Of a stretch of 64,000 nucleotides of DNA, positions 5,723 to 63,282 are shown one piece after another (the first letter of the stretch is position 1; every line of letters begins with the position of its first letter). Source of the stretch: Sphaerisporangium rubeum (GTDB lineage Bacteria > Actinomycetota > Actinomycetes > Streptosporangiales > Streptosporangiaceae); contig NZ_JACHIU010000001.1 in the NCBI RefSeq assembly GCF_014207705.1, positions 1,860,001-1,924,000 of the forward strand, read 5' to 3'. Made by a program: the position numbers and the translations under genes. Under the pieces are notes generated by a model. The model had not been told where the DNA came from. It was given only the letters and a program-made list of their open reading frames with translations, and did no database searches.

Positions 5723-5797
5723 GCCCCCTTAGCTCAGGGGATAGAGCACCGGCCTCCGGAGCCGGGTGCGCAGGTTCGAATCCTGCAGGGGGCACCA
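5723..5797 (+). tRNA. tRNA-Arg (anticodon CCG)
   Basis: A 75-nt cloverleaf with an encoded CCA end. The acceptor stem GCCCCCT (5723-5729) pairs with AGGGGGC (5787-5793). The anticodon stem CCGGC/GCCGG flanks the loop CTCCGGA, giving anticodon CCG (reads CGG). The T arm GGTTCGAATCC is canonical. It is transcribed toward the RiPP-like operon but separated from it by a terminator. Confidence 0.95.
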
Positions 5798-6123: not shown

Positions 6124-6201
6124 ATGGAGATCAGCTGGGACCTGGGTCAGGTCGATGAGGAGGCCGCGGAGTTCGACGTCCTCGCCAACAAGTCTTACTG
6201 A
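6124..6201 (+). CDS. Putative RiPP precursor peptide (25 aa)
   Basis: A 25-codon gene with a strong upstream GGAGAGGAGG. The peptide starts MEISWDLG and ends EFDVLANKSY. It has seven acidic residues and a single Lys, concentrated so that residues 1-18 look like a leader (acidic, with Trp5 and a FDVL motif) and only about five residues (ANKSY) remain as a candidate core. There is no Cys or Thr; the only hydroxylated side chains are Ser4, Ser24 and Tyr25. It is followed after 131 nt by a YcaO gene and then by oxygenase, exporter and peptidase genes, which is the context of ribosomally made, modified peptides. The assignment is inference from size, composition, ribosome binding site and neighbours; I do not recognise the peptide family. 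Confidence 0.6.
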   Translation: MEISWDLGQVDEEAAEFDVLANKSY

Positions 6202-6332
6202 CGCGTGAGTCGTCCGCATGCCTGTGACCGGGGAGCGGCCGATCGGAAGGACGTGGTGGGGTGGGTCTCCTGCGCAGGCACCCCGCCGCGTCCGGGCCTG
6301 GTGTCCGGGGTGGGGTTCGCGGAGGAGTGAGG

Positions 6333-7373
6333 ATGAGCGACCGGGGAGAGGTACGGGCCGCCGGGCCTGTGGTGCGGCCTCTGGTCGGTGGGGCCGTTCA
6401 TGTCGCGTGGATGAGTGACGCGTCGGGGATCAGTGGCGGGGCTTGTGACGACGATCCGCGGCGTGCGGCGCGGCGTGCGGTGGGGGAGTATCTGCAGCAT
6501 GTGAGTCATGTGGCGGCGGCGGGGGTGCTGCCGTTGGTGGGGGATCCGGGTGGGCTTCCCAGGGTGGAGCCCGCGGCGTGGCTCGCGGCCGGGTCTCCGG
6601 TCTGTCACTGGGTGACCGGACAGGGGATGCGCGACGGGGCCGAGATGGTGGTGCCGGCTCAGGCGGTTCTGCTCGGGTGGGACCCGCCGGCGCCGGAGGT
6701 GCGGTGGTGTGTGCAGACGTCGGCCGGTACGGGTGCCGGGACGGATCGGTGGTCGGCACGGACGGCGGCGCTGCTGGAGGTGATGGAGCGGCACGTCCTG
6801 GTCCGCGGCTGGCGCACGGGGGACATCGGCTTCGAGGAACTGGACCACCTGCACGAGTCCGTGCTGCCGGAGAAGCTGCTCGCGGGGCTGCGTGAGCACG
6901 AGGTCCGGTTGCGCACCGTCCGTGTGGCGCGGCACTTTCCCGACATCGTGCTCGCTTTGCTGTACCGGGCCGGGGGTGCGGCCCTGACCTGTGGCGCCGC
7001 GGCGAGAGGTGACACCGGTGACGCCGTACGGCACGCGGTCTACGAGGCGGTGGCGGCACGGCTCGCGCTCGGTGCGCGGCCGTCGAGCGGTCTGCAGAGC
7101 CGGGAGCGGGAACGGGGTCACGCCGTGGCGGCGGCCGGGCCGGCGTACCTGGACTTCGTCGAGAGCCGGATCGTGGGACGCGGCGCGTCCCGGCGGGGAC
7201 GGGTCGACGCGGCGGCGCTGCTGGACGCGGCGGACTCGCTGTTCGCACGCCAGCCGGTCGAGGTCCGGCTGCCTTCCGTCGACGGCCACGTGGTGCGCCG
7301 CGTCGTGTGCCACGGCTCTGAGGTCCTCGAACCGCTGACCCCGTCGTCCCCCCTGCCCTGTCCAGTGGTTTAG
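6333..7373 (+). CDS. YcaO-domain protein, probable RiPP backbone-modifying enzyme
   Basis: 346 residues. Three YcaO blocks are visible: SGISGGACDDDPRRAARRAVGEYLQ near residue 30 (the usual SGGKG...ARxSAxGEAxER), TSAGTGAGTDRWSARTAALL followed by EVMERH near residue 130 (the ATP/Mg EVxER motif) and the ARALTEAAQSR-like block HAVYEAVAARL near residue 240. The C-terminus ends PLPCPVV, a PxPxP motif of the kind found in azoline-forming YcaO cyclodehydratases. YcaO enzymes activate a peptide amide with ATP to make azolines, thioamides or amidines. The ATG at 6333 is chosen because GGAGG lies 7 nt upstream; a longer GTG start at 6261 lacks such a site. No TfuA or E1-like partner is seen, which makes the chemistry uncertain. 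Confidence 0.8.
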   Translation: MSDRGEVRAAGPVVRPLVGGAVHVAWMSDASGISGGACDDDPRRAARRAVGEYLQHVSHVAAAGVLPLVGDPGGLPRVEPAAWLAAGSPVCHWVTGQGMRDGAEMVVPAQAVLLGWDPPAPEVRWCVQTSAGTGAGTDRWSARTAALLEVMERHVLVRGWRTGDIGFEELDHLHESVLPEKLLAGLREHEVRLRTVRVARHFPDIVLALLYRAGGAALTCGAAARGDTGDAVRHAVYEAVAARLALGARPSSGLQSRERERGHAVAAAGPAYLDFVESRIVGRGASRRGRVDAAALLDAADSLFARQPVEVRLPSVDGHVVRRVVCHGSEVLEPLTPSSPLPCPVV

Positions 7374-7382
7374 GAGCGCAAC

Positions 7383-8618
7383 GTGTCTTCCTTCGCCTAC
7401 CAGCGCGACGAGTCCCGGTCGTTCGGCGAGCTGAGGTTCCCGCCGGCGGACGTGCTCGACACGACGGAGCTGGCCCGCCGCTGGGCCGGGTGGCTCGATC
7501 TGCGGGACACCGATGGTCTCGTCCCGCTGCGTTCTCTGCACGCCGTGCACCTCGCACGGATGCTCACCGGCGAACAGGACGAGGACGTGCCGAACTGGTT
7601 CAGCACGGTGTCGGTCACCAGTTCCCGCTACCAGGTCGTCGTGCAGGCCAGAAGCGACAGGCATCGGTGCGAACAGCCCGGTGCGCTCCCCGCGGAGGTG
7701 CGCTCACCACGCTGGCAGGCCCTCGTCGAGGCGCTGGAGGGCTGGGCCGGTCTGCCGGCGGCACGCCGGGTCGTCGTCGTCGCGTTGCTGACGCAGCTCG
7801 GTTTCCACCGCCTTGCTGTACGCCTGGTCGGCACGTTCGCCGTGGACGCCGACCCGGTGCGCCAGCAACTGGTCTACGAGGTGGCGCGTGCGGCGTACCA
7901 GCTCAACAGGAAGTCCCCCATCCCGTACGAGATCTTCGCCTGGCTGGCCCGCGACGCCGTCCGTCCCGCGCTGCGCACCCTCGCGGCGCTGCAACTGGTC
8001 TCCACCCGTGTCCGAGGCAGCGATCGGGAGGAGGCGGGCCGATGGCTCGCCGCGGCGGAGCGGTCCCTCGCCGGTCTCGGCGACGAGCCGGACTGGCTGG
8101 CGCACCTGGTGACGAGCCGCTACCACCGTGCCGCCGCGCTGCACGAGCTCTCCGGCCGCGACCGGGAACCGGTGGTGACGCACATGCGCGCCGCGCTGGA
8201 GCACGACGACGCCTTGGCGCGGTCGGCCGGTAACCCGTCGCAGGTCCACTACCAGCGGGAGAACCGGGGACTGGTGCTGGAGGCGCACCTCAAGCTGGAC
8301 ACCCTGACCGGTACGGCGAGCGCGCCTGCCGACGCCGTCGAGCAGCTGCTCTCCCTCGATCCTGTCGACCCCGAGCCGCTGTACGCGGTCGGCGCCTACC
8401 TCGCCGGGTTCGGTGACCGGGAGGCCGCGCTCGCGACGTTCCTGCGGGCCGCGGGCTCAGGCACGCTGCGCGGAGCGTCGGCGGCGAACGCGGCGGCCGT
8501 CTGCGCGGAACGGCTGGGACGTCCGGACGTGGCCGAGCACGCACGCCGTCTTCTGCTCGACCTGGATCCGGCCGCACGTCTGGCGGTCCACCAGGCGGAC
8601 ACCCGGACCCGGAGGTGA
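7383..8618 (+). CDS. Unrecognised alpha-helical repeat protein of the RiPP-like operon
   Basis: 411 residues, not recognised as a named family. It starts at GTG, 6 nt after AGGAG and 9 nt after the YcaO stop. The sequence is Ala/Leu/Arg-rich, without signal peptide or membrane segments. Its second half is a run of helix pairs in TPR style (AALHELSGRDREPVVTHM; DPEPLYAVGAYLAGFGDREA; AANAAAVCAERLGRPDVAEH). Its place between the YcaO and oxygenase genes, with a 3-nt gap or overlap to the latter, argues for a role in the same pathway, possibly scaffolding or precursor binding for the YcaO enzyme. That role is inference; no catalytic motif is seen. Confidence 0.7.
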   Translation: MSSFAYQRDESRSFGELRFPPADVLDTTELARRWAGWLDLRDTDGLVPLRSLHAVHLARMLTGEQDEDVPNWFSTVSVTSSRYQVVVQARSDRHRCEQPGALPAEVRSPRWQALVEALEGWAGLPAARRVVVVALLTQLGFHRLAVRLVGTFAVDADPVRQQLVYEVARAAYQLNRKSPIPYEIFAWLARDAVRPALRTLAALQLVSTRVRGSDREEAGRWLAAAERSLAGLGDEPDWLAHLVTSRYHRAAALHELSGRDREPVVTHMRAALEHDDALARSAGNPSQVHYQRENRGLVLEAHLKLDTLTGTASAPADAVEQLLSLDPVDPEPLYAVGAYLAGFGDREAALATFLRAAGSGTLRGASAANAAAVCAERLGRPDVAEHARRLLLDLDPAARLAVHQADTRTRR

Positions 8619-8620
8619 TC

Positions 8621-9940
8621 ATGATGGAGACACGCAGGCTGCTCGCGGTCACGGAGCTGGACCACCTGGCCGACCTGCCGGGACCGCATCCCGGTGGCAC
8701 AGGAGCGCAGGGCCACGCGCTCGACCGCGTTCTCGCCACCCTGAGCGGTGAACGGTTCCTCGACCGGTACTGGGGGCGGGACTGTTACCAGGACACCGGC
8801 GAGCCGGACCGCTTCCACCACCTGCTGCCGTGGGACGAACTCAACCGGCTGCTCGACGGCCACCGGGCCTGGCCGCTCCGCATGCAGGTGGCCAAGGCGG
8901 GCAGGTCGTTGCCTCCGTCGTCCTACGTCGAGCCGATCCCTGGCCGCGGCACCGGCAGGGAACCCGTGCTCCGGGTCGGCGGCGTGAAACTGCACGCACG
9001 GCTGCGCGAAGGCGCGACGCTGGTCTTCGGTTCGGTGGACGAGGCCGTCCCGGCGGTCCGCGACCTCGCCGAGGCCCTCGAACACGATCTGAGCGCGGAG
9101 GTGTTCGTCAACCTTTACGCGTCATGGGGGGAGGTCGGCGCCTTCGACCCGCACTGGGACGACCACGACGGCCTCATCCTGCAAATCTACGGCCGCAAGG
9201 AGTGGCAGCTGTTCGGCGTCGGCCGTCCCGTGCCGCTCCCCGGCGACGAGCCGCTCAACGAATGCCCCCCGGTCCCCTCGCGGCAGTTCGAGCTGCGCGA
9301 AGGCGAGGCGCTGTACGTGCCGCGCGGCCACTGGCACGCCGTACGGCCGGTCGGCGGCACCACCGTCCACCTCACCTTCGGTTTCCGGCGGCCGGTGGTC
9401 GAGGACTTCCTGAAGTGGGTGGCGGAACGGCAGCGCCGCCACCCGGAGGCGCGTTTCGACCTGCCGCTCACCGGCTGGGACGACGAGACGGCGGTCCGGC
9501 TGTCGACGTTGCGCGACCGGATCGGCGCGCTGCTCACCGAGGACGGGCTGCGCCGGTACGTCGCGGAACGGGACGCGCACGCGCAGGCCAGGCCCCGGCA
9601 CGCGTTGCCGTACGCGGCGTCCGGCGACTTCCCGCCGGACGCCGTCGTGGTGCTCGCCGCACCCCGGCCGGTGGCACTCCATGAGGACGGCAGCCGGTGC
9701 GTCATCGTGTCCGCGGGCAAGCGGTACGACTTCGACGCGGTCTGCGCGCCTCTGCTGCGGCGTCTGCTCGAACGTACCCCGTGGCGGCTGGACGAGCTGG
9801 TCCGCGACGACGACGGCGGCGGGCCGTCGTCGGAAGAGAGCCGCGAACTGGTGGCCGAGTTGCTCCGGCACGGCCTGCTGCGGCTCGGCCCCACGTCACA
9901 GCCTCTCCCAGCCGGCGCATCCGACAGAAAGGGCCGATGA
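8621..9940 (+). CDS. JmjC/cupin_4 Fe(II)/2-oxoglutarate oxygenase
   Basis: About 439 residues, similar in layout to the bacterial ribosomal-oxygenase (YcfD/ROX) family: a cupin core followed by a dimerisation/winged-helix-like tail. The iron triad is visible as His178-x-Asp180 (DPHWDDHD) and His239 (PRGHWHAV). The upstream text ERFLDRYWGRDCYQ matches the usual start of cupin_4 proteins. Such enzymes hydroxylate side chains such as Arg, His or Asn beta-carbons on proteins. Within this operon the likely substrate is the precursor peptide, which is inference. GGAGG at 8611-8615 serves ATG 8621 or 8624; a GTG at 8615 is inside that site. The stop overlaps the MFS start by 4 nt. Confidence 0.8.
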   Translation: MMETRRLLAVTELDHLADLPGPHPGGTGAQGHALDRVLATLSGERFLDRYWGRDCYQDTGEPDRFHHLLPWDELNRLLDGHRAWPLRMQVAKAGRSLPPSSYVEPIPGRGTGREPVLRVGGVKLHARLREGATLVFGSVDEAVPAVRDLAEALEHDLSAEVFVNLYASWGEVGAFDPHWDDHDGLILQIYGRKEWQLFGVGRPVPLPGDEPLNECPPVPSRQFELREGEALYVPRGHWHAVRPVGGTTVHLTFGFRRPVVEDFLKWVAERQRRHPEARFDLPLTGWDDETAVRLSTLRDRIGALLTEDGLRRYVAERDAHAQARPRHALPYAASGDFPPDAVVVLAAPRPVALHEDGSRCVIVSAGKRYDFDAVCAPLLRRLLERTPWRLDELVRDDDGGGPSSEESRELVAELLRHGLLRLGPTSQPLPAGASDRKGR

Positions 9941-11232
9941 TGGCGGACAGCCCGCGCGACACGAGGCCACCTCTCCGGCCGGTCCGGTCCGGCATGTCCG
10001 CGCTGGCGCCGGACTTCCCCATGTTCTGGGGGGCGACGACGGTGTCGCTCCTCGGCAACGGCATCTCGTCCGCGGCGCTGCCCCTGCTGGCGGCCACGCT
10101 GTCCAGCGATCCGATCGTGGTGTCGTCGGTGGTCGTCGTCGGCAGGCTTCCCTGGCTGCTGTTCGCGTTGCCGGCCGGTGTCATGGCCGACCGATGGGAC
10201 CGCAAACGCGCCATGTGGATCAGCGACCTGGTGCGCGCCGGCCTGACCGCGGCGCTCGCGGCGGCCGTGGCGACGGGGTACGCCGGCATCGCGCTGCTGA
10301 TGGTGGTGGGGTTCCTGATCGCGATCGCCGACACCGTGTTCGACAGCGCCGGCACCGCCGTGCTGCCGAAGGTGGTGGGAGGCGACCCCGAGCGGATCCA
10401 GCGGGCCAACTCGTGGCTGGTCGGATCACGCAACACGGTGGAGTCCTTCGTCGGGCCGCCGCTCGGCGGACTGCTGTTCACCATGTCGCGGTCGCTCCCC
10501 TTCCTCGGGGACGCGCTGTCGTTCCTGGTCAGCGCCGTCCTGCTGCGCAGGATGCGCGGCGACTACCACGTGGCGCGCAACGCTCTCGGCGACGGCGGCC
10601 TGCGCAAGGCCATCGGGGAGGGCTTCACCTGGTTGTGGCGGCAGCCGGTGCTGAGGTCGATCACCGGCATCGCCGGCTTCTTCAACGTGGCGTCCCTCGC
10701 GCAGACGGCGATCTTCGTGCTGTTCGCGCAGCAGGTGTTCGGTCTCGGCGCCCTGGGCTTCAGCCTGCTGATCGCCGCGGGTTCCCTCGGCGCCTTGTTC
10801 GGCGCGGCACAGGCCCGGCGGCTCAACCGATGGGTCGGCGCGGCGGTGAGCCTGCGCGTGGCACTGGCCGTGGCGGGAGTCGCCTGCCTGGTCCTCGCCG
10901 CGGCGCCGAATCCGTGGGTCGCGGCGGCCGGGGAGATCCTCGGCGGGTTCGGCGCCGCTATCTGGAACGTCAACCAGATGTCCCTGCGGCAGTCCGGCAC
11001 GCCGGACCACCTGCTCGGCAGGGTCACCGGCGTGCACCGGCTGGTCACCTACGGGGCCATGCCGTTCGGTGCGCTGCTCGGCGGTGTGCTCGCCTCGCTG
11101 TCGGGGTTGCGCACGTCGTTCGTGGCCGCCGGTGTGATCATGTTCGCGCTCGCCGTGTTCGCCACGGTCGCGATCACACGTTCCCGGGTCGCGGAGCTGA
11201 CGCGGCCCCCGGCCGACAGCCCGTCCGTATAG
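9937..11232 (+). CDS. MFS exporter
   Basis: 431 residues with the hydrophobic pattern of a 12-helix major facilitator. The motif A-like loop AGVMADRWDRKRAMW lies between helices 2 and 3. It belongs to the MFS_3 type (EntS/macrolide-efflux-like; FWGATTVSLLGNGISSAALP at the N-terminus). The ATG at 9937 overlaps the oxygenase stop (ATGA); an in-frame ATG at 9940 is also possible; GAAAGGG lies upstream. As the only transporter in the operon it is the likely exporter or self-resistance pump for the peptide product. Confidence 0.85.
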   Translation: MMADSPRDTRPPLRPVRSGMSALAPDFPMFWGATTVSLLGNGISSAALPLLAATLSSDPIVVSSVVVVGRLPWLLFALPAGVMADRWDRKRAMWISDLVRAGLTAALAAAVATGYAGIALLMVVGFLIAIADTVFDSAGTAVLPKVVGGDPERIQRANSWLVGSRNTVESFVGPPLGGLLFTMSRSLPFLGDALSFLVSAVLLRRMRGDYHVARNALGDGGLRKAIGEGFTWLWRQPVLRSITGIAGFFNVASLAQTAIFVLFAQQVFGLGALGFSLLIAAGSLGALFGAAQARRLNRWVGAAVSLRVALAVAGVACLVLAAAPNPWVAAAGEILGGFGAAIWNVNQMSLRQSGTPDHLLGRVTGVHRLVTYGAMPFGALLGGVLASLSGLRTSFVAAGVIMFALAVFATVAITRSRVAELTRPPADSPSV

Positions 11233-11246
11233 GTAAGGAGAACACG

Positions 11247-11966
11247 ATGGTGAGCAACAGCCTGGAACGCCTGCTCCGGCACCCGAGGGAGCTGGTCTGG
11301 CGGACCATGTTCGACCCGGCGGCGGCCGAGCACTGGCTCGGCACGGTGGCCAGTGTCATGCCTGAGCGCGAAGGGGCCGCGCTGTGCTGGCTGTACGACC
11401 CCGGCGCGCGCATGCCGACCGCCTACAGCGGACGGATCGAGGTCCTGGACCGGTTCCGCCGCCTGGAGCTGGTGGTCGGCCTCATCGCCTGCGACGCCGA
11501 GATCCGGATGACGTTCGAGCTGACGGACGTGCCGGCGGACACGGGGGAGACCCACACCCGCCTGAGCCTCCGGCAGGAGGGTTTCCCCGCGGACGGCAAC
11601 GGCAGGTTCGAGCGCGACGGCTTCCTGCACCACTGGGACCATTTCCTGGAGCTGCTCGGCGACTACCTGGACGGAACGCCGAAGAACTACCACACCATGC
11701 ACAGGACCGAGCTCGGCGTGATCCCCGTCGGGGCCGTACGCGGAGAGGGAATGCTGGTGCAGGACGTGGCCGTCGGCGCACCCGCCGACCTCGCCGGGGT
11801 ACGCGCGGGGGACGTCATCCGTTCCTGCGGCGACTTCCTGTTCGGCAGCCTGGACGACCTGGACGCGTGGGTCGAGAGCCACCGGCCGGGTGAACGGGTG
11901 GAACTTCTGGTCGGCGACCGCCTGGTGCCGGTGGTGCTGCGGGAGAAACGGTACGCCCCCTCCTGA
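11247..11966 (+). CDS. SRPBCC (START-like) - PDZ fusion protein
   Basis: 239 residues. The N-terminal ~145 residues resemble the AHSA1/SRPBCC ligand-binding fold (RELVWRTMFDPAAAEHWLG at the start, HWDHFLELLGDYL as the closing helix). The C-terminal ~85 residues are a PDZ domain (GMLVQDVAVGAPADLAGVRA, GDVIRSCGDFLFGSLDDLDAW). GGTAAGGAG lies 7-8 nt before the ATG, 14 nt after the MFS stop. SRPBCC folds hold hydrophobic ligands and some catalyse cyclisation or hydrolysis; PDZ domains bind C-terminal peptides. A precursor or product chaperone that grips the free C-terminus of the peptide is an attractive inference. I do not know of a named family with this fusion. Confidence 0.7.
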   Translation: MVSNSLERLLRHPRELVWRTMFDPAAAEHWLGTVASVMPEREGAALCWLYDPGARMPTAYSGRIEVLDRFRRLELVVGLIACDAEIRMTFELTDVPADTGETHTRLSLRQEGFPADGNGRFERDGFLHHWDHFLELLGDYLDGTPKNYHTMHRTELGVIPVGAVRGEGMLVQDVAVGAPADLAGVRAGDVIRSCGDFLFGSLDDLDAWVESHRPGERVELLVGDRLVPVVLREKRYAPS

Positions 11967-11983
11967 GCGCCGGGAGCAAGGCG

Positions 11984-13492
11984 ATGACACCGTACGTCGC
12001 ACCGCTGCCGGACCGTTCGCCGCGGAGCGTCGGACCGCTGCCGGCCCCGTTCCTGCGCGCGCAGCTCGACGGCGCACGGCCGGCGTTCGCACTCACCCCC
12101 GCCGGTCCGGTGGTCAGCACCGACGCCTGGTCGGGTCGCCACCTCGCGCTGCTCGCGGACGGCCGCTGGACCAGGCTCACCGGCGGCTCCCTGTGGCACA
12201 GCCGTCCGGAGTGGACCGACGGCGGCCTGGTCGCCGACGTGTTCCACGACCTCGCGGCCGAGCGGTCGAGCAGTGCGCCGGTGCCGCTGGCCGGTGCGGC
12301 ATCGGAACACGCCGGGCCCCGTGCGGTCCTCACCCCCGACGGCCGGGCCGTCGCGCATCCCGTCATGGGGGAGGTGCGGCTGCCGCGGGGAGCGACGGCC
12401 GAGTGTGTGGTGCCGTCGCTCGACGGACACGACCGGATCGCTGTGCTGCTGCGCCACGGCAGGGCTCGCCGGGTCGTGTGCGTGGACCGCGACGGCGTCT
12501 GTCACCGGGACGGCCCGGTGACCGCGGCCGGCCCGTGGCTGTCGGAGCACGAGCTCGTCGTGGTCCTGGAAGCGTGGCCCGGTCGTGTCCCGTACGCCTG
12601 GGACGTGCGGTCCGGAGCGCTGCGCCGCCTGGTGGAGCCGGCCGCGATCGTGGTGGACGACGTGCGGGCCGGCGGCGGCCTCGTCGGCCTGAGCTGGACC
12701 GCGGCCGGCCGGCCACGCCGGCTGGAACTGGCCGAGACGGCGCGCCTGGCACGCGGGGAACAGATCCCGCTGACCCCGGACCCGCCGCGCGCCGACGGCC
12801 TGCCGTCCGCCGCCGCCACCGTCGTCCAGGGCTCGCGCTGCCCCCTGCCGACCCTGCTGCGCGACCCTCCCGGCCAGGCACGCGGCACCGTCCTGCTGCT
12901 GCACGGCGGCCCGAACGGCTCGAACCTGGCGACCTGGTCGCCGTTCGCCGAGTCGCTGGCCCTGGCCGGCTGGCGTGTCGTCCAGCCGAACCTGCGTGGC
13001 AGCGGCCTCGTCGATCCCGCCGTCCGCGCTCCGCTTCCCGGCCGCTACGGGGTGGACGACGCCGACGACGCGCTGACCGTGCTGCGCCGCACCGCGATCG
13101 GCCCCGTCGTGGCCGGCGGCATGAGCTACGGCGGCTACCTGGCGACCCACGTCGCCAGGATGGCCCCCGATGTACGCGGCGTGTTCCTGCTCGGCGGCTT
13201 CCTGCGGCCCTCCGACCTCGACGACTCCGGCCACCCACAGGTCGAGGCCTTCCTGCGCACAGCGTCCGGCCGCTTCGCGCCACATGCTCGCTTCGCCGCC
13301 GTGCCACACTTCGTCGCGCACGGCGAACGAGACCCCCGCATCCCCGTCGAGGCGGTCCGCACCCACCTGAACGACCTGCCGTCCGGTTCGGAATGGGTCA
13401 CCATCGAAGGCGAGGGCCACGGCATGCTCTCCGACCACGCGGCCAGGCTGGTCTTTCCTCGCTTGTTCTCGTGGCTGGACCGTCTCGGCTGA
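11984..13492 (+). CDS. S9 (prolyl oligopeptidase)-type serine hydrolase
   Basis: 502 residues: an N-terminal, propeller-like half that is shorter than usual for the family, and a C-terminal alpha/beta-hydrolase. Visible motifs are LLLHGGPNG (oxyanion loop), GGMSYGGY with Ser381, HGERDPRIPV with Asp450 and EGEGHGM with His479. No signal peptide is seen, so it should act in the cytoplasm. S9 enzymes cleave short peptides, often after Pro or by removing N-terminal residues. As the last gene of the RiPP-like operon (17 nt after the previous stop) it is the best candidate for leader trimming; an amide- or ester-forming role like other alpha/beta-hydrolases in RiPP pathways is an alternative. Confidence 0.8.
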   Translation: MTPYVAPLPDRSPRSVGPLPAPFLRAQLDGARPAFALTPAGPVVSTDAWSGRHLALLADGRWTRLTGGSLWHSRPEWTDGGLVADVFHDLAAERSSSAPVPLAGAASEHAGPRAVLTPDGRAVAHPVMGEVRLPRGATAECVVPSLDGHDRIAVLLRHGRARRVVCVDRDGVCHRDGPVTAAGPWLSEHELVVVLEAWPGRVPYAWDVRSGALRRLVEPAAIVVDDVRAGGGLVGLSWTAAGRPRRLELAETARLARGEQIPLTPDPPRADGLPSAAATVVQGSRCPLPTLLRDPPGQARGTVLLLHGGPNGSNLATWSPFAESLALAGWRVVQPNLRGSGLVDPAVRAPLPGRYGVDDADDALTVLRRTAIGPVVAGGMSYGGYLATHVARMAPDVRGVFLLGGFLRPSDLDDSGHPQVEAFLRTASGRFAPHARFAAVPHFVAHGERDPRIPVEAVRTHLNDLPSGSEWVTIEGEGHGMLSDHAARLVFPRLFSWLDRLG

Positions 13493-57555: not shown

Positions 57556-59583
57556 ATGAGAGGCAATGACAATGCCGGCGCCAAGGCGGCTGATCATTTG
57601 GATTTCGCCGAGGGCCTGCTCGACTTGTTCGACGCGAGTGACCGGCGCAGGGGCGATTACCTGGAGCGTATCGCCAGGGTCAGGGCCCGGCTCGGCGACG
57701 ACCGGTTCTACCTGGCGGTGATCGGGGAGTTCAGCAGCGGAAAGAGCACGTTCATCAATGCGCTTCTCGACGCGGAAATCTTCGCGGCGAGCGCCTTGGT
57801 GACGACGAGCGCGTCGGTGCGGGTGCGTTACGGGCCGGCTTTCGGTGTGCGCGCGGTGTTCGGAGACGGTTCGGTGTGGGAGAGAACCGCGGGGGCCGGT
57901 GAACACCTGGACGGTGCGCGGGGGCCGGTCAAGCCGGCGGACGGTGGCTTCGACGGGGAGCCGACCACGCGGCAGGTGCGCGAGCATCTGGAGCGGACCG
58001 GCGTGCTCGAGGCGCTGACGATCCTCACCACCGATCCGGGGGTGGCGCCTCAGGTGGAGCGCGTCGACGTGACGTACCCGTCGGCGCTGCTGGAGACCGG
58101 CTTGGTCGTCATCGACACGCCGGGGACGAACTCCGGCGACGGGGAGCACGGTCACGCGCACGCCGCCATCGCGAGGCAGGTGGTCACCGAGGCCGACCTC
58201 GCCGTCGTCGTCAGCGCCGAGAGCAAGATCATGACGCTCTCCCTGCAGGACTTCCTGACCGGCGCGCTGGACGAGGGACTGCTGGCGAGGTGCTGCTTCG
58301 TCATCACCTACGCCGACCAGATCGAGCCCGACGAGTTCGACGACCGGCGCCGTGACGCGGCCCGGCGCATCGCGGGACCGCTCTCGCTGACCGACCCCCC
58401 GATCATCTTCGCTTCGCCGAAGCAGGTGGTCGCCGCGCGGCGCGGCACCCTGCCGGAGGACGGCGCGGTGTGGGTGGAGCGGTTCGGGGCCACCCGGCGC
58501 TGGCTGCACCGGATCGCCGCGCTGCGGCGGCCCGCCGCGGTGGCCGACACCGCGCTGCGGCTGTTGCAGGAACTGCTGGACCAGCTCGACCGCGAGCTGG
58601 AAGGCGAGATGCGCACGCTGGAGAAGCGGCAGCACGAACTGGACGCCGTCGCCCCGGCCGACATGGAGGACTTTCTCGCCGACCGGCTCACGGCAGGGGT
58701 GCGGTCCATCAGGCGAGCCGAGAAGCGGGCCCTCACCCGCGTCGGCGACCTGACGGACTCCGCGACCGACGGCACCGAGAGCGCGATCCGTGCCGCGATC
58801 GCCCCCTGCGGCAACGGCAAAGCGATCGAGAACGTCGTGAGGAACGAGGTGCCGAGCCTGGTCAGGGACAGGTTGAACACGCTGGCGGAGGGCTCGGCGA
58901 CCGCCGTCACCGAGATCCTGCGGCGCGAGCTCACGACCCAGGCCGAGGCGCTGCGCGCCGCCTTCACCGCCGAGTACTCCAAGCTGGAGCGGATCGACGC
59001 GGCACCGCTCACCGGTGACACCGCTCATGTGGGCCTCGCCGGGATCGTGGTCGGCGCGGACACGTTCTCCGCGGCCGCCGCGATCGGCGCCGACGACAGC
59101 ACGCGGGACGCGCTCTCGTTCGGCGGCGGGGTCGGGGCCGGCGCGCTGCTCGGCACCATGATCCTCCCCGGGATCGGCACCGTCGTCGGCGGTGCCCTGG
59201 GGTTCGTGGTGGGTGCCCTGTTCGCGGCGGACATCACCAAGGTGCGTGCGCGCGCCACGGAGAAGGCGACGGCGCCGGTCCGGCCCGTCTTCCTGGAGGC
59301 CGGCCGGCAGCTGAAGGACGCCGTCGCGGGGTCCGCCGACGGATGCGAGAAGGAGCTCCGGCGCCAGGCGGCGTGGTACCGGCGCACGTACAGCAAGACG
59401 ATCGACGCGCTCCACCAGGAGCATCACCGGCGGCAGAAGTCCCTGAACAGCCGCCGCGACCGCGTCAGGGCCGCGCAGAAGGAGAGCGCCGCGCGCGGAA
59501 GGTCGGTGACCGCCGAGCGGGTCCGGCTGCGAACGGTGGACCGCCTGAACACCACCGACCCCTTCGGAGGGTGGAATGACTGA
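57556..59583 (+). CDS. Dynamin-like GTPase (first of three)
   Basis: 675 residues. G domain with P-loop GEFSSGKST (Gly57, Lys63, Ser64), switch II DTPGTNSGDG and a TYADQ segment at the G4 position. A helical stalk follows, then a glycine-rich hydrophobic stretch (GGVGAGALLGTMILPGIGTV, VGGALGFVVGALFAADI) that can insert in or span the membrane, then more helix. Bacterial dynamin-like proteins of this layout work as interacting pairs in membrane remodelling, for example at actinomycete sporulation septa. The start at 57556 has GGAGGAGG upstream. Overlaps the next gene by 8 nt. Confidence 0.82.
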   Translation: MRGNDNAGAKAADHLDFAEGLLDLFDASDRRRGDYLERIARVRARLGDDRFYLAVIGEFSSGKSTFINALLDAEIFAASALVTTSASVRVRYGPAFGVRAVFGDGSVWERTAGAGEHLDGARGPVKPADGGFDGEPTTRQVREHLERTGVLEALTILTTDPGVAPQVERVDVTYPSALLETGLVVIDTPGTNSGDGEHGHAHAAIARQVVTEADLAVVVSAESKIMTLSLQDFLTGALDEGLLARCCFVITYADQIEPDEFDDRRRDAARRIAGPLSLTDPPIIFASPKQVVAARRGTLPEDGAVWVERFGATRRWLHRIAALRRPAAVADTALRLLQELLDQLDRELEGEMRTLEKRQHELDAVAPADMEDFLADRLTAGVRSIRRAEKRALTRVGDLTDSATDGTESAIRAAIAPCGNGKAIENVVRNEVPSLVRDRLNTLAEGSATAVTEILRRELTTQAEALRAAFTAEYSKLERIDAAPLTGDTAHVGLAGIVVGADTFSAAAAIGADDSTRDALSFGGGVGAGALLGTMILPGIGTVVGGALGFVVGALFAADITKVRARATEKATAPVRPVFLEAGRQLKDAVAGSADGCEKELRRQAAWYRRTYSKTIDALHQEHHRRQKSLNSRRDRVRAAQKESAARGRSVTAERVRLRTVDRLNTTDPFGGWND

Positions 59584-61321
59584 CGACAGCGGTACCTGGC
59601 CCGGCGTCACCGTCGGCGACCAGGTCAAGGAGTGGCTGGACGGCGCGCGCGCCGTCGCGCGGACAGCGGGGATGGACGCCGCCTCGGACGAGGTCGACGC
59701 GATCGTCTCGCACGCGCTGCGCATGAGGGCACGTGTGGTGGTGACGTCCACGTCGTCACGGCTCAGGTCCTGGCTGGTCAACGAGCTGCTGGGCCGTACG
59801 GTACTGCCGGCCGACCCCGGGGCCGACGTGCCGATCGTGATCACGCCGGGCCGGATCGACCACCTGGAGGCCGAGACCGCCGGCGGGCCGAGCGCTCGCA
59901 GGCTGACCGCGGACGACCACTGGCACCGTGACGGCGACCCGGAGGTCGCGGCTTTCCGGCTCCAGCTCCACGACGACACCCTGGAGCAGGGAGGGCTGGA
60001 TCTGGCCACGGTGTCCGCGTCGGCGGAGTCGTGCCGGAACACGAGGTCACCGGCGCGGTCCGTCCTCGCCTCCGCCGACGCGGTCGTCATGCCGGTCACC
60101 GCCACCTCGGCGATGACGATGACCGACATGACGTTCCTGGAGGAACTGTTCCGCCTCGGGGTCTCGCCTGCACGTGTCCTGGTCGTGCTGAGCAGGCTGG
60201 AACTCGTCGAGGAGGACGACCGCGCCGAGGTGCTGAACTACGTGACCAGGCGGGCCGCGAAACTCTCCCCGCTGCTGACCGTGGTCCCGGCGGAGGTCGC
60301 GGCCGAACAGGAGATCGCCGCCGGCGTACGCGCCTGGATCACCGACACCATCCTCCCCACCGCTCGCACGGCCCGTATCGAGCACATCGGCCGCAGGATC
60401 ACCCAGTGCCTCGCGAGCGTGCGTGCGACGGCCGAGCAGGCGATGCGGGACGCGGCGGCCGAGCGGGAACGTCTCGCCGGCGAGACCGCCGGACACCGGT
60501 CGCGCGTCGCCGACCGTCTGCGGATCTTCGACGAGCTCGCCGTGGACGTGCAGAGCAAGCAGAACCAGGTGCTCGACGACCTGCGCCGCGAGCGGGACCG
60601 GTTCCGTGAGGAGCTGACCGCGTCCGTCCTCCACCAGGTGGACCGGGCCGGGGACCCCAAGGAGTGGATGGAGGCCGAACTGCCGTACCAGCTGGAGACC
60701 CGGCTGGCGGCCTGGGACGGCAACGTGCGCAAGGTGCTGCACGCCACCACCGGACGCCATCTCGACGAGGTGACCGGCGCGCTCGCCACGTCGTTCGGCC
60801 TGCGCCTCGATCTGCGGGCCGAACCCCTCGGCACCGGCCCGGCCATCCCCGTCATGGGAGACATACGCCTCGACGACCTGCGTCAGCGCAAGCTCCTGTA
60901 CCGCATGGGGCCGACAGGTGTGGCGCTGCTGGCGGCGTTGCTCGTCCCCGGCTTCGGCCCCCCGGCCGCGTTGATCGCGTCACTGGTCGGCACCGGGCTG
61001 GCCGAGGTCCGGCTGCGCACCCTGGTGAACGAGCAACGGGCCCTGCTGAGGAAACGGCTGCCCGGCGTGGTCGACGCCGCGCTCGATCCCCACACCGACA
61101 CGATCACCGACCACCTGTCGCGGGTGTACCGGCACGTCCACGACGAGGTGCTCCGGCTGCGGAACCAGTGGCGCGCCACCATGGCGGAACCCGCCGTCAC
61201 GCCGCTTCCCGCCGCGCCGGACTGGCCGGCCGTCGTGGCCGGCGCCGAGGAGCTCACGGCGACGATCCGCGCCGGCGCGGACGTCGTCGTCTTCACCGAC
61301 GGGAGAGGGGTACGCCGATGA
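59576..61321 (+). CDS. Degenerate dynamin-like protein (pseudo-GTPase)
   Basis: 581 residues. It aligns with its neighbours through RVVVTSTSSRLRSWLVNELL then GRTVLPADPGADVPIVIT, which corresponds to VLVAGEFNAGKSTTINAMLG then QKVLPASGNPTTAVLS in the third protein. The whole P-loop GxxxxGKS is thus replaced by TSTSSRLRS, and no DxxG switch II is present. The rest is conserved in style: helical stalk with long charged helices and a hydrophobic stretch (GVALLAALLVPGFGPPAALI) near residue 450. It should not hydrolyse GTP and may be a structural or regulatory partner in a hetero-oligomer. ATG with GGAGG upstream; the stop overlaps the next start (ATGA). Confidence 0.78.
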   Translation: MTDDSGTWPGVTVGDQVKEWLDGARAVARTAGMDAASDEVDAIVSHALRMRARVVVTSTSSRLRSWLVNELLGRTVLPADPGADVPIVITPGRIDHLEAETAGGPSARRLTADDHWHRDGDPEVAAFRLQLHDDTLEQGGLDLATVSASAESCRNTRSPARSVLASADAVVMPVTATSAMTMTDMTFLEELFRLGVSPARVLVVLSRLELVEEDDRAEVLNYVTRRAAKLSPLLTVVPAEVAAEQEIAAGVRAWITDTILPTARTARIEHIGRRITQCLASVRATAEQAMRDAAAERERLAGETAGHRSRVADRLRIFDELAVDVQSKQNQVLDDLRRERDRFREELTASVLHQVDRAGDPKEWMEAELPYQLETRLAAWDGNVRKVLHATTGRHLDEVTGALATSFGLRLDLRAEPLGTGPAIPVMGDIRLDDLRQRKLLYRMGPTGVALLAALLVPGFGPPAALIASLVGTGLAEVRLRTLVNEQRALLRKRLPGVVDAALDPHTDTITDHLSRVYRHVHDEVLRLRNQWRATMAEPAVTPLPAAPDWPAVVAGAEELTATIRAGADVVVFTDGRGVRR

Positions 61322-63282
61322 CGGCGATACAGGACGGCTCGGGTTTCGACCAGTTCCAGGGACTGCGCAAGGAACTGATCGAACTCATCGAGCGGCTTGA
61401 GGGGGTCGTACGCGGGGCCGGCCAGCCGACGCTGGCCGAGACCGTCGCGGAACTGCGCGGCAGGGTGGCCAACGACACGTTCACCGTGCTGGTGGCCGGG
61501 GAGTTCAACGCGGGGAAGAGCACCACCATCAACGCGATGCTCGGCCAGAAGGTACTGCCGGCCAGCGGCAACCCCACGACCGCGGTACTCAGCGTCGTGC
61601 GCTGGGGTGAGACGGAACAGGGATTCCTCTACCGGGTGGACACCACCAAGATCGACGGATTGGACGAGGCCGCGGTTCCGGTCGCCGTACAGGACCTGAC
61701 CCGGCATATCACCATCGACTCACAGTCCGACGGGCCGAACACCTGGGGGATGGCGGAGATCCGCTGGCCCCTGGAGCTCTGCCGCCGCGGTGTGGACCTC
61801 GTGGACTCCCCAGGTCTCAACGAGAACATCGAGCGGGCGAGGATCACGCTGGAGTTCGTCAACAAGGCCGACGCCGTCGTGTTCGTCTTCAGCGCGCTCC
61901 AGGCGTTCTCCGAGAGCGAGCAGAAGATCATGGAGGAGCATCTGCAGATGTTCTGCCACGACAACATCTTCTTCCTCGTCAACCGCGTCAACCAGGTCGA
62001 CGAGGACGACGTGGAGAACGTGAAGGCCGGCGTCCGCGCACGTATCAGGGAGCGCTGGGACGTCGGCGACGATCGGCTGATCTTCGTCAACGCGCAGGGA
62101 GCGCTCAAGGGCCGGCAGAACGGCGACCCGGCGCAGGTGGAGGCGTCGGGGCTGCCGGTCTTCGAACGCAGCCTGGAGCACTTCCTGACCACGCAGCGCG
62201 CTCGGTTGAAGATCGTGCCACCCGCGGCCCAGGTGCAGACGGTCGTCGCGACCACCCGGGACGCCATCGAGGACGTGCTCGGCCTCCTCGACCGGAACAG
62301 GAAGGAACTCGCCGACAAGTACGAACAGGCCCGCGGGCCGCTGGAGCGGCTGCGCCAGGACCGCGCGCTCATCGGCCGCAGCATGGACAACCACCTCGCG
62401 GCCACCCGCGCGCAGATACAGGAACAGGCGAGGCGGCGGCTGATCCAGGCCGCGGACCTGTGCCTGAGCTGGGGTCACGAGGTGGAACGCTCCAACAAGG
62501 TGACGCTCAACGTGTTCAAGGCCAAGGAGAACATGAACCTCCTCGCCGAGGAGATGACCGAGGCCCTCGGGAACCGGGTCCGTCAGTACCTCGACGACTG
62601 GCGCAAGGGGGAGCTGACGGACCTGATCCGCGCCAGGGTCGAGGACCTGGAGGCGCAGGTCGGCGAGAAGCTGGACATGTTCGACCGGGACCTTGAGGAC
62701 ATCCGTGTCTCGATCTTCGAGCCGGCCGGGATCGCGGAGCAGCGGTCGCCGTCGGCGCTCAACCGCGGGCTCTCGACGGCGCTCGGGTTGTTCGTCGATC
62801 CGGGGTCGGCGCTGGTCGGCGCGCAGTTCGGGTTCAAGGACATGCTCAAGGGAGTCCTGCCGCAACTGGCGCTCGCCTTCGGCATCGGTCTGCTCGGATT
62901 CGGCCCCGGTGTGCTGTTCGCCGCTCTGGCCGGGGCCGGTCTGATCCGCACGTTGTGGAAGCTGGACAAGCTGAACAAGTCCATCGTGGACACCGTGGCC
63001 GACGCGGTCGCCAAGAAGCTTCGCGACGAGGCGCCGGAGATGGCGCGGCTGATCAGCGACAAGATCTACGCCGAGTTCGCCAAGCAGCAGCGCAGGGTCG
63101 ACGAAGGGCTGGCGTCGGCCGTCGCGGAGGTCGACGAGAAGGTCCGGTTCGCGCTCGGGGAACTGGAGCGGCACGAGGAGTCCAGCGAGCAGACCAAGAG
63201 CGAGCTCAAGGCCCACCGCAGAACCCTCGTGGAGATCGACCAGCGAGCCGCGTCCGTGATCAAGCAGTGGGCCCTCAGCTGA
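61318..63282 (+). CDS. Dynamin-like GTPase (third of three)
   Basis: 654 residues. Intact G domain: P-loop GEFNAGKST (Gly61, Lys67, Ser68), Thr in NPTTAV as switch I, DSPGLNEN as G3 and LVNRVNQVD as G4 (NxxxxVD). Long helical stalk, a membrane-interacting paddle-like segment (LPQLALAFGIGLLGFGPGVL, FAALAGAGLI) and a C-terminal coiled coil. It is the most canonical of the three. GGGAGAGGGG lies upstream of ATG 61318. The tight overlaps mean equal production of all three proteins. Confidence 0.85.
   Translation: MTAIQDGSGFDQFQGLRKELIELIERLEGVVRGAGQPTLAETVAELRGRVANDTFTVLVAGEFNAGKSTTINAMLGQKVLPASGNPTTAVLSVVRWGETEQGFLYRVDTTKIDGLDEAAVPVAVQDLTRHITIDSQSDGPNTWGMAEIRWPLELCRRGVDLVDSPGLNENIERARITLEFVNKADAVVFVFSALQAFSESEQKIMEEHLQMFCHDNIFFLVNRVNQVDEDDVENVKAGVRARIRERWDVGDDRLIFVNAQGALKGRQNGDPAQVEASGLPVFERSLEHFLTTQRARLKIVPPAAQVQTVVATTRDAIEDVLGLLDRNRKELADKYEQARGPLERLRQDRALIGRSMDNHLAATRAQIQEQARRRLIQAADLCLSWGHEVERSNKVTLNVFKAKENMNLLAEEMTEALGNRVRQYLDDWRKGELTDLIRARVEDLEAQVGEKLDMFDRDLEDIRVSIFEPAGIAEQRSPSALNRGLSTALGLFVDPGSALVGAQFGFKDMLKGVLPQLALAFGIGLLGFGPGVLFAALAGAGLIRTLWKLDKLNKSIVDTVADAVAKKLRDEAPEMARLISDKIYAEFAKQQRRVDEGLASAVAEVDEKVRFALGELERHEESSEQTKSELKAHRRTLVEIDQRAASVIKQWALS

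Follow-up and report, generated by a model that had tools for sequence, protein, structure and literature searches.

Among ribosomally synthesized and posttranslationally modified peptides (RiPPs) that involve YcaO proteins, the thioamide type has a TfuA partner and bottromycins are made with two YcaO proteins. Linear azol(in)e-containing peptides and thiazole/oxazole-modified microcins (LAPs/TOMMs) have an E1-like or ocin-ThiF partner, and the streptamidine family, whose product carries a six-membered amidine, is encoded by clusters with FecBCDE-like, flavin dehydrogenase, and ABC transporter genes (PMC8442711). Biphenomycin clusters encode a JmjC hydroxylase and a tetratricopeptide repeat (TPR)-containing protein, an arginase that bears the motifs EEHxE, DxHxD, and DIDLD (PMC12707348, PMC12257519). 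In Escherichia coli, a ribosomal-oxygenase-type JmjC protein (RoxA) and YcaO modify neighboring residues of ribosomal protein uL16 (PMC13063428). Here, we describe an operon that shares single traits with several of these systems, found in a window of 64,000 nucleotides (the whole stretch of DNA analyzed) that covers 1.86-1.92 Mb of the 7.5-Mb single-contig genome (G000) of the soil actinobacterium Sphaerisporangium rubeum. Seven genes on the forward strand (positions 6124 to 13492 of the window) encode, in this order, a 25-residue peptide, a YcaO protein, a TPR protein, a JmjC protein, a major facilitator superfamily (MFS) transporter, an SRPBCC-PDZ fusion, and an S9-like hydrolase. Very probably, the C-terminal end of the peptide is turned by this operon into a RiPP, and the balance of the comparative evidence favors a RiPP in which the JmjC protein acts on Asn22.

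When 342 Streptosporangiales genomes were searched with a YcaO profile, a clade of nine (G000, G006, G007, G009, G015, G334, G341, G222, and G176) stood apart with E values of 2.6e-113 or better, the next match being at 3.3e-16. All nine loci were confined to one bacterial family, and Sphaerisporangium album is a named relative carrying this YcaO. Within a class-wide draw of 394 genomes, strong matches to the clade came only from G000 and G015; two other families, with 35 and 140 genomes searched, gave none at E 1e-20, an empty answer that shows little there, and there was no match among the plasmids searched. The YcaO, TPR, and S9-like genes were present in all nine loci and the SRPBCC-PDZ gene in eight (not in G176), with an identical order of all seven genes in five further genomes (G006, G007, G009, G015, and G334). 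Outside the operon block the flanking genes differed among loci, except that G015 and G334 shared theirs. The initial annotation had read the operon as a RiPP locus, a reading that would fall if homologous YcaO operons lacked a conserved short peptide gene; such a gene precedes YcaO in 9/9 loci.

The precursor gene (positions 6124 to 6201, stop included, forward strand) encodes MEISWDLGQVDEEAAEFDVLANKSY, and the stretch GGAGAGGAGG immediately upstream of its ATG is a strong ribosome site. The peptide consists of an acidic leader (WDLG..DE....EFD) followed by a C-terminal core around VLANKSY. Precursors of G006, G007, and G009 differ from that of the window only by Gly21, G015 and G334 share MEISWDLGQVDEEAQEFDVLGNKSY, G341 has MDSNIWDLGQVDEEAQEFDVLGTKSY, and G222 has MEVTWDLGEVDESAEEFDVLGTKSY; that of the distant G176, MQETVESTMEFDWDLGVQEDDQDYPVLLCTDYMA, was chosen by likeness out of five candidate short frames. 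Identity to the peptide of the window was 24, 24, 24, 23, 23, 19, and 18 of 25 residues in G006, G007, G009, G015, G334, G341, and G222, so that the eight close loci have peptides 72-96% identical to it, and 11 of 24 aligned residues in G176. The corresponding values for YcaO, in the same order with G176 last, were 82, 82, 83, 65, 65, 60, 67, and 35%; in each close locus the peptide was conserved more strongly than YcaO, and at the DNA level the peptide gene was more alike than ycaO in all six pairs compared. Five precursors tested against NCBIfam gave no match, and assignment to a known precursor family was rejected.

Residue 22 and the JmjC gene change together. Six of the nine loci carry the JmjC gene, between those for the TPR and MFS proteins, and all six have Asn at this position (EFDVL[A/G]NKSY). 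The three whose operon is missing it (G341, G222, and G176; loci L047, L050, and L051, respectively) have Thr in G341 and G222 (GTKSY) and, in a MAFFT alignment, Cys in G176. Next to it, Lys23 and Ser24 are each found in eight of nine precursors, the core of L051 being without Lys and having Asp at the Ser24 position. In G222 and G176, the TPR gene and the transporter gene after it overlap, and in G341 fewer than 300 nt lie between the two; a tblastn search of these three operon regions for a JmjC remnant gave nothing better than E 0.05. Comparison of G334 with G341 showed 51 identical nucleotides of precursor DNA ending one base before codon 22, after which Asn/Thr and the JmjC gene differ. 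In a tree of five proteins, G341 grouped with G015 and G334 (L012 and L046) with a support of 78, and constraining the JmjC-containing loci to a single clade was rejected (approximately unbiased [AU] test, p = 0.023). A minimum of two coordinated switches follows from this, the scenario favored by these sequence comparisons. The joint absence of JmjC and Asn22 has a published parallel in biphenomycin-type clusters, where those without the core Arg are also without the arginase and the hydroxylase (PMC12257519). Taken as a pattern, this covariation suggests that Asn22 is the likely substrate of the JmjC protein.

The JmjC protein itself (about 8621-9940, forward strand; JmjC_2, 5.8e-20) is a predicted 2-oxoglutarate/Fe oxygenase of the ribosomal-oxygenase type with a C-terminal winged helix. 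H177, D179, K192, and H238 are invariant in nine aligned relatives; we take H177, D179, and H238 to be the HxD...H iron site and K192 to be, presumably, the 2-oxoglutarate lysine, so that both features of the JmjC/ribosomal-oxygenase fold were found. A model of moderate confidence (predicted local distance difference test [pLDDT], 68) matched NO66, MINA, and YcfD across the JmjC part and the winged helix, and the nearest structures, by sequence and by fold, are protein hydroxylases. At the C terminus the same model has strands (341-371) followed by helices (372-381, 389-392, and 403-415), a region that aligns also with the ribosomal-oxygenase winged helix and for which a search against the PDB gave no credible match. 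A RiPP recognition element (RRE), which binds a leader, is built of three strands and then three helices. RRE-like domains fused to PF08007 JmjC proteins, with bacterial homologues in RiPP-like contexts, are mentioned in PMC12710340, and by analogy the C-terminal domain may hold the leader. Elsewhere in the JmjC-lacking G222 (contig C309, L121:7046-9474), a radical SAM-like protein (unscanned) adjoins a JmjC protein 30% identical to that of the window, possibly a separate RiPP locus.

The standalone YcaO (346 amino acids [aa]; 6333 to 7373, forward strand; Pfam YcaO, 6.9e-24) is the only one in its genome. Its YcaO domain scored 85.2 bits against a curated cutoff of 25.7, the best NCBIfam model was of the SagD type at 56 bits, far under its cutoff of 219, and its profile had no match in the PDB at E 0.01. 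E52, E149, E152, and R153 align with E75, E199, E202, and R203 of E. coli YcaO, residues of the ATP site, to which E78, S184, N187, and E191 also belong. The C-terminal extension of the 586-aa E. coli protein is missing, and the YcaO studied here does not look like that ribosome-modifying type, a comparison rather than a placement in a tree of all YcaO types; grouping with such proteins was the other outcome said to undo the RiPP reading. No TfuA was found in the whole genome, so TfuA-type thioamidation was rejected, and in G341 and G222 TfuA was located only away from the operon; a Pfam scan of the six large operon genes detected no ThiF/E1 domain. The absence of both partner types had been remarked on from the letters of the window, and it held.

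The third gene (411 aa; 7383 to 8618, forward strand) had been called an unknown helical protein. Helical was correct; unknown was not, since the AlphaFold2 model (pLDDT, 88.6) is a TPR-like superhelix whose best Foldseek matches are designed TPR proteins. With this fold and the RiPP enzymes that neighbor its relatives (see below), it is a candidate peptide-binding partner. An arginase role like that of BipC/PbsE was rejected, the Mn-site motifs being absent. Co-occurrence with the YcaO clade, which the initial annotation proposed to check for this protein and the JmjC protein, was found in 9/9 and 6/9 loci, respectively.

From these data we propose a pathway that would begin when the TPR protein, perhaps together with the JmjC winged helix, takes hold of the acidic leader. 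The JmjC protein would then beta-hydroxylate Asn22, giving a side-chain hydroxyl like the one on the Thr of the JmjC-lacking relatives. YcaO, with ATP, would activate the amide between residues 21 and 22 and most likely close an azoline at residue 22: a carboxamide-bearing oxazoline from hydroxy-Asn, a methyloxazoline from Thr, and a thiazoline from Cys. The S9-type hydrolase would cleave off the leader, and the MFS protein would export the product. A nucleophile at residue 22 predicts the alternation of Asn plus JmjC, Thr, and probably Cys, which is equally compatible with a mere need for the hydroxyl in the product. The site is a good inference and the heterocycle a guess, and we hold an azoline at residue 22 only tentatively; the complete sequence, in which a TPR-guided YcaO with neither an E1 nor a TfuA partner cyclodehydrates JmjC-made beta-hydroxyasparagine to the carboxamide-bearing oxazoline, is more doubtful. 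The backbone modification plus hydroxylation foreseen in the initial annotation is thus plausible, now with a putative target residue for the hydroxylation; on the sequence evidence, the RiPP reading holds, and the modification chemistry stays at plausible.

Several observations weigh against this proposal. Tree support is modest, with the YcaO-only tree giving the L047 grouping just 62 and the TPR-only tree placing G341 outside, which would permit one switch. The eight close loci contribute five distinct precursor sequences, plus one from the distant locus, and the Cys of L051 depends on the alignment with 11/24 identical residues. G341, G222, and G176 each carry one other, distant JmjC match on another contig (E values of 4.2e-9, 3.9e-26, and 1.6e-50, respectively; none inside the operon), and such a JmjC protein might act in trans in these genomes. 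Among the YcaO residues, E. coli E78 is replaced by Gln in 7/9 proteins, S184, N187, and E191 are unmatched, and the N-terminal residues fall outside the alignment. Ser24 could be an alternative azoline site, and a ring-free need for the hydroxyl in the final product fits as well.

The last two points meet in the alternative that survives best, namely, that the residue-22 hydroxyl is needed in the finished molecule only (e.g., for target binding) and that YcaO works elsewhere, for instance by forming an oxazoline at Lys23-Ser24. Thr and hydroxy-Asn are similar in shape, and Ser24 is nearly constant; however, L051, with Asp in its place, has a YcaO of the same clade, and we see this as possible rather than probable. 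Some standalone YcaO proteins of actinobacteria form amidines (PMC8442711), and an amidine might arise here, in the manner of bottromycin or streptamidine, if a backbone amide were activated and then attacked by the amine of Lys23 or by the N terminus left after leader removal, with Asn22 hydroxylation as a separate decoration. Lys23 would be suited to this, but the core of L051 has no Lys, the Asn/Thr/Cys alternation is left unexplained, and the operon is without all the genes for a Fec transporter, an ABC transporter, and a flavin dehydrogenase that the same source gives for the ami cluster, making an amidine unlikely. Still less likely is a thioamide beside the hydroxylated residue, as a RiPP counterpart of uL16, in which E. 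coli YcaO thioamidates Met82 adjoining Arg81, hydroxylated by RoxA (PMC13063428). The JmjC protein of the operon resembles RoxA/YcfD; nevertheless, the genome has no TfuA, YcaO is without the E. coli extension, and thioamidation in E. coli is independent of hydroxylation according to the same source, so that no Asn/Thr exchange would be expected. That the peptide is a regulatory leader or an attenuator of the operon would suit its short length and the hairpin downstream, but it is very improbable, as its C terminus shows strong conservation and varies in step with the JmjC gene and as the distant relative with a divergent YcaO retains a WDLG-type peptide at the same position.

This candidate hairpin (6249 to 6293, forward strand), a possible attenuator or processing site between precursor and YcaO, has a 15-bp stem in the window and in L009 (z = -1.85 and -1.96), and three further loci gave values between 0.23 and -1.34; the z values are weak, and a structured RNA was rejected. 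The peptide and YcaO genes are 131 nt apart, and the later distances (9, 2, -1, 14, and 17 nt) agree with the close packing of the last six of seven same-strand genes first described. The remaining genes, all on the forward strand, encode the predicted MFS exporter (9940 to 11232; MFS_3, 2.5e-31), the SRPBCC-PDZ fusion (11247 to 11966; AHSA1, 9.7e-8; PDZ_2, 2.7e-7), and the S9-like alpha/beta hydrolase (11984 to 13492; Peptidase_S9, 7.9e-9; Abhydrolase_1, 4.6e-18), a candidate leader peptidase with a GMSYGG nucleophile motif. Five operon proteins had no PADLOC match, and a defense or phage role was rejected; of the four compared with PHROGs, YcaO and TPR gave no match and JmjC and SRPBCC-PDZ matched families of unknown function only.

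Some features were seen around the operons. A tRNA-Arg (CCG; 5723-5797) lies ca. 330 nt upstream of the precursor; integration at this site was rejected, since the 3' end of the tRNA gene recurs nowhere in the window. After the S9 gene, a small gene (107-138 aa, MLRVSVSKV...) appears in L009:16215-16526, L012:3057-3473, L046:14795-15211, and L047:4501-4809; it was not found in the first 20 kb of the window nor in L010, L011, L050, and L051. The Thr-type operon of G222 is bracketed by direct repeats (L050, 4744-5043 and 13492-13791; 300 nt, 98% identity) within a 454-aa gene repeated on both sides, which suggests mobility or an assembly artifact. Far from the operon (57598-63282 of the window), two of three adjacent genes have dynamin-like GTPase starts (FSSGKSTFINAL and FNAGKSTT), as judged by eye.

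Relatives of the TPR protein had a wider distribution, with matches in 29/345 genomes of the order at E 0.001. We examined the loci of the stronger matches (omitting G222:C98, a 116-aa open frame at 6.4e-17, G338 at 5.4e-9, and weaker matches), 11 of them outside the YcaO clade (L013/14, L048, L049, and L052-L059). In 10 of these, a RiPP-type enzyme was nearby: L013/14 has rSAM_ocin_1 and a pair of SagB-like proteins, L048 has proteins that resemble SagB by similarity, L049 and L052-L057 have ThiF, and L058 has a radical SAM protein; none was recognized in L059. In several loci, L014 and L048 among them, short candidate precursors were seen. The class-wide search matched 9/394 genomes at E 1e-10, and six regions from it (L136-L141; G015:C12, G239, and G013 omitted), of which only L136 and L140 are outside the order and L137 is the genome of the window itself, showed no RiPP enzyme by BLAST against the query set, as opposed to Pfam. 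Two kinds of separate clusters stood out. That of G034 (contig C79; L013:8656-19918 and L014:1-2344) is RiPP-like and combines rSAM_ocin_1, two SagB-like proteins, and three TPR relatives with an S9 peptidase, a methyltransferase, a MATE-like transporter, and a 40-aa candidate precursor with a C-terminal GRIY. The related L053:7500-15851, L055:3419-11900, and L056:3930-11900 have a TPR protein, ThiF (82-85% alike), and 51-55-aa candidate precursors with a C-terminal IL[S/T]YE[Y/E]; a B12 radical SAM protein was identified by Pfam in L053 and L056, and a cupin/JmjC protein was identified in L053 and L055. The TPR protein might represent an undescribed partner family common to YcaO, radical SAM, SagB, and ThiF clusters, a suggestion that we make as part of the hydroxylate-then-cyclize reading and that shares its doubtful standing, and the family hints at more uncharacterized RiPP-like clusters in Streptosporangiaceae.

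If an azoline does form at Asn22, YcaO heterocycle chemistry would reach a residue beyond Ser, Thr, and Cys, and a lone unremarkable core Asn could serve as a cyclization site. The Asn/JmjC-plus and Thr/JmjC-minus operons are a natural pair that allows direct testing. No description of the operon was found in the open-access literature, a scope that leaves aside subscription papers, bioRxiv preprints, and supplements.

Compared with known systems, the operon shares with streptamidine-type RiPPs a short precursor without a Ser/Thr/Cys-rich core, a standalone YcaO, a hydrolase, and the lack of a TfuA/E1 partner (PMC8442711), but it has JmjC, TPR, and SRPBCC-PDZ proteins where that family has FecBCDE-like, flavin dehydrogenase, and ABC transporter genes, none of which is among its Pfam matches. 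A likeness to LAPs/TOMMs lies in the sub-cutoff SagD model and in the heterocyclizable residue at the key position of the JmjC-lacking relatives; however, the six large genes include neither ThiF/ocin-ThiF nor a SagB-type dehydrogenase. Unlike thioamide RiPPs, it has no TfuA in its genome, and unlike bottromycin producers, this genome has one YcaO. Biphenomycin clusters likewise place the genes for a JmjC hydroxylase and a TPR-containing protein together in a single RiPP operon and lose the target residue together with the enzymes (PMC12707348, PMC12257519), but the arginase motifs of their TPR protein are absent here, as are MNIO and B12 radical SAM proteins (Pfam). With E. coli uL16 the operon has in common a ribosomal-oxygenase-type JmjC protein and a YcaO, which there act on neighboring residues of a ribosomal protein and not of a short peptide (PMC13063428). 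By the defining features that were tested, the operon falls outside the azol(in)e (ThiF partner), thioamide, bottromycin, streptamidine, and biphenomycin systems, and its genes point to a class of RiPPs whose set of enzymes is undescribed.

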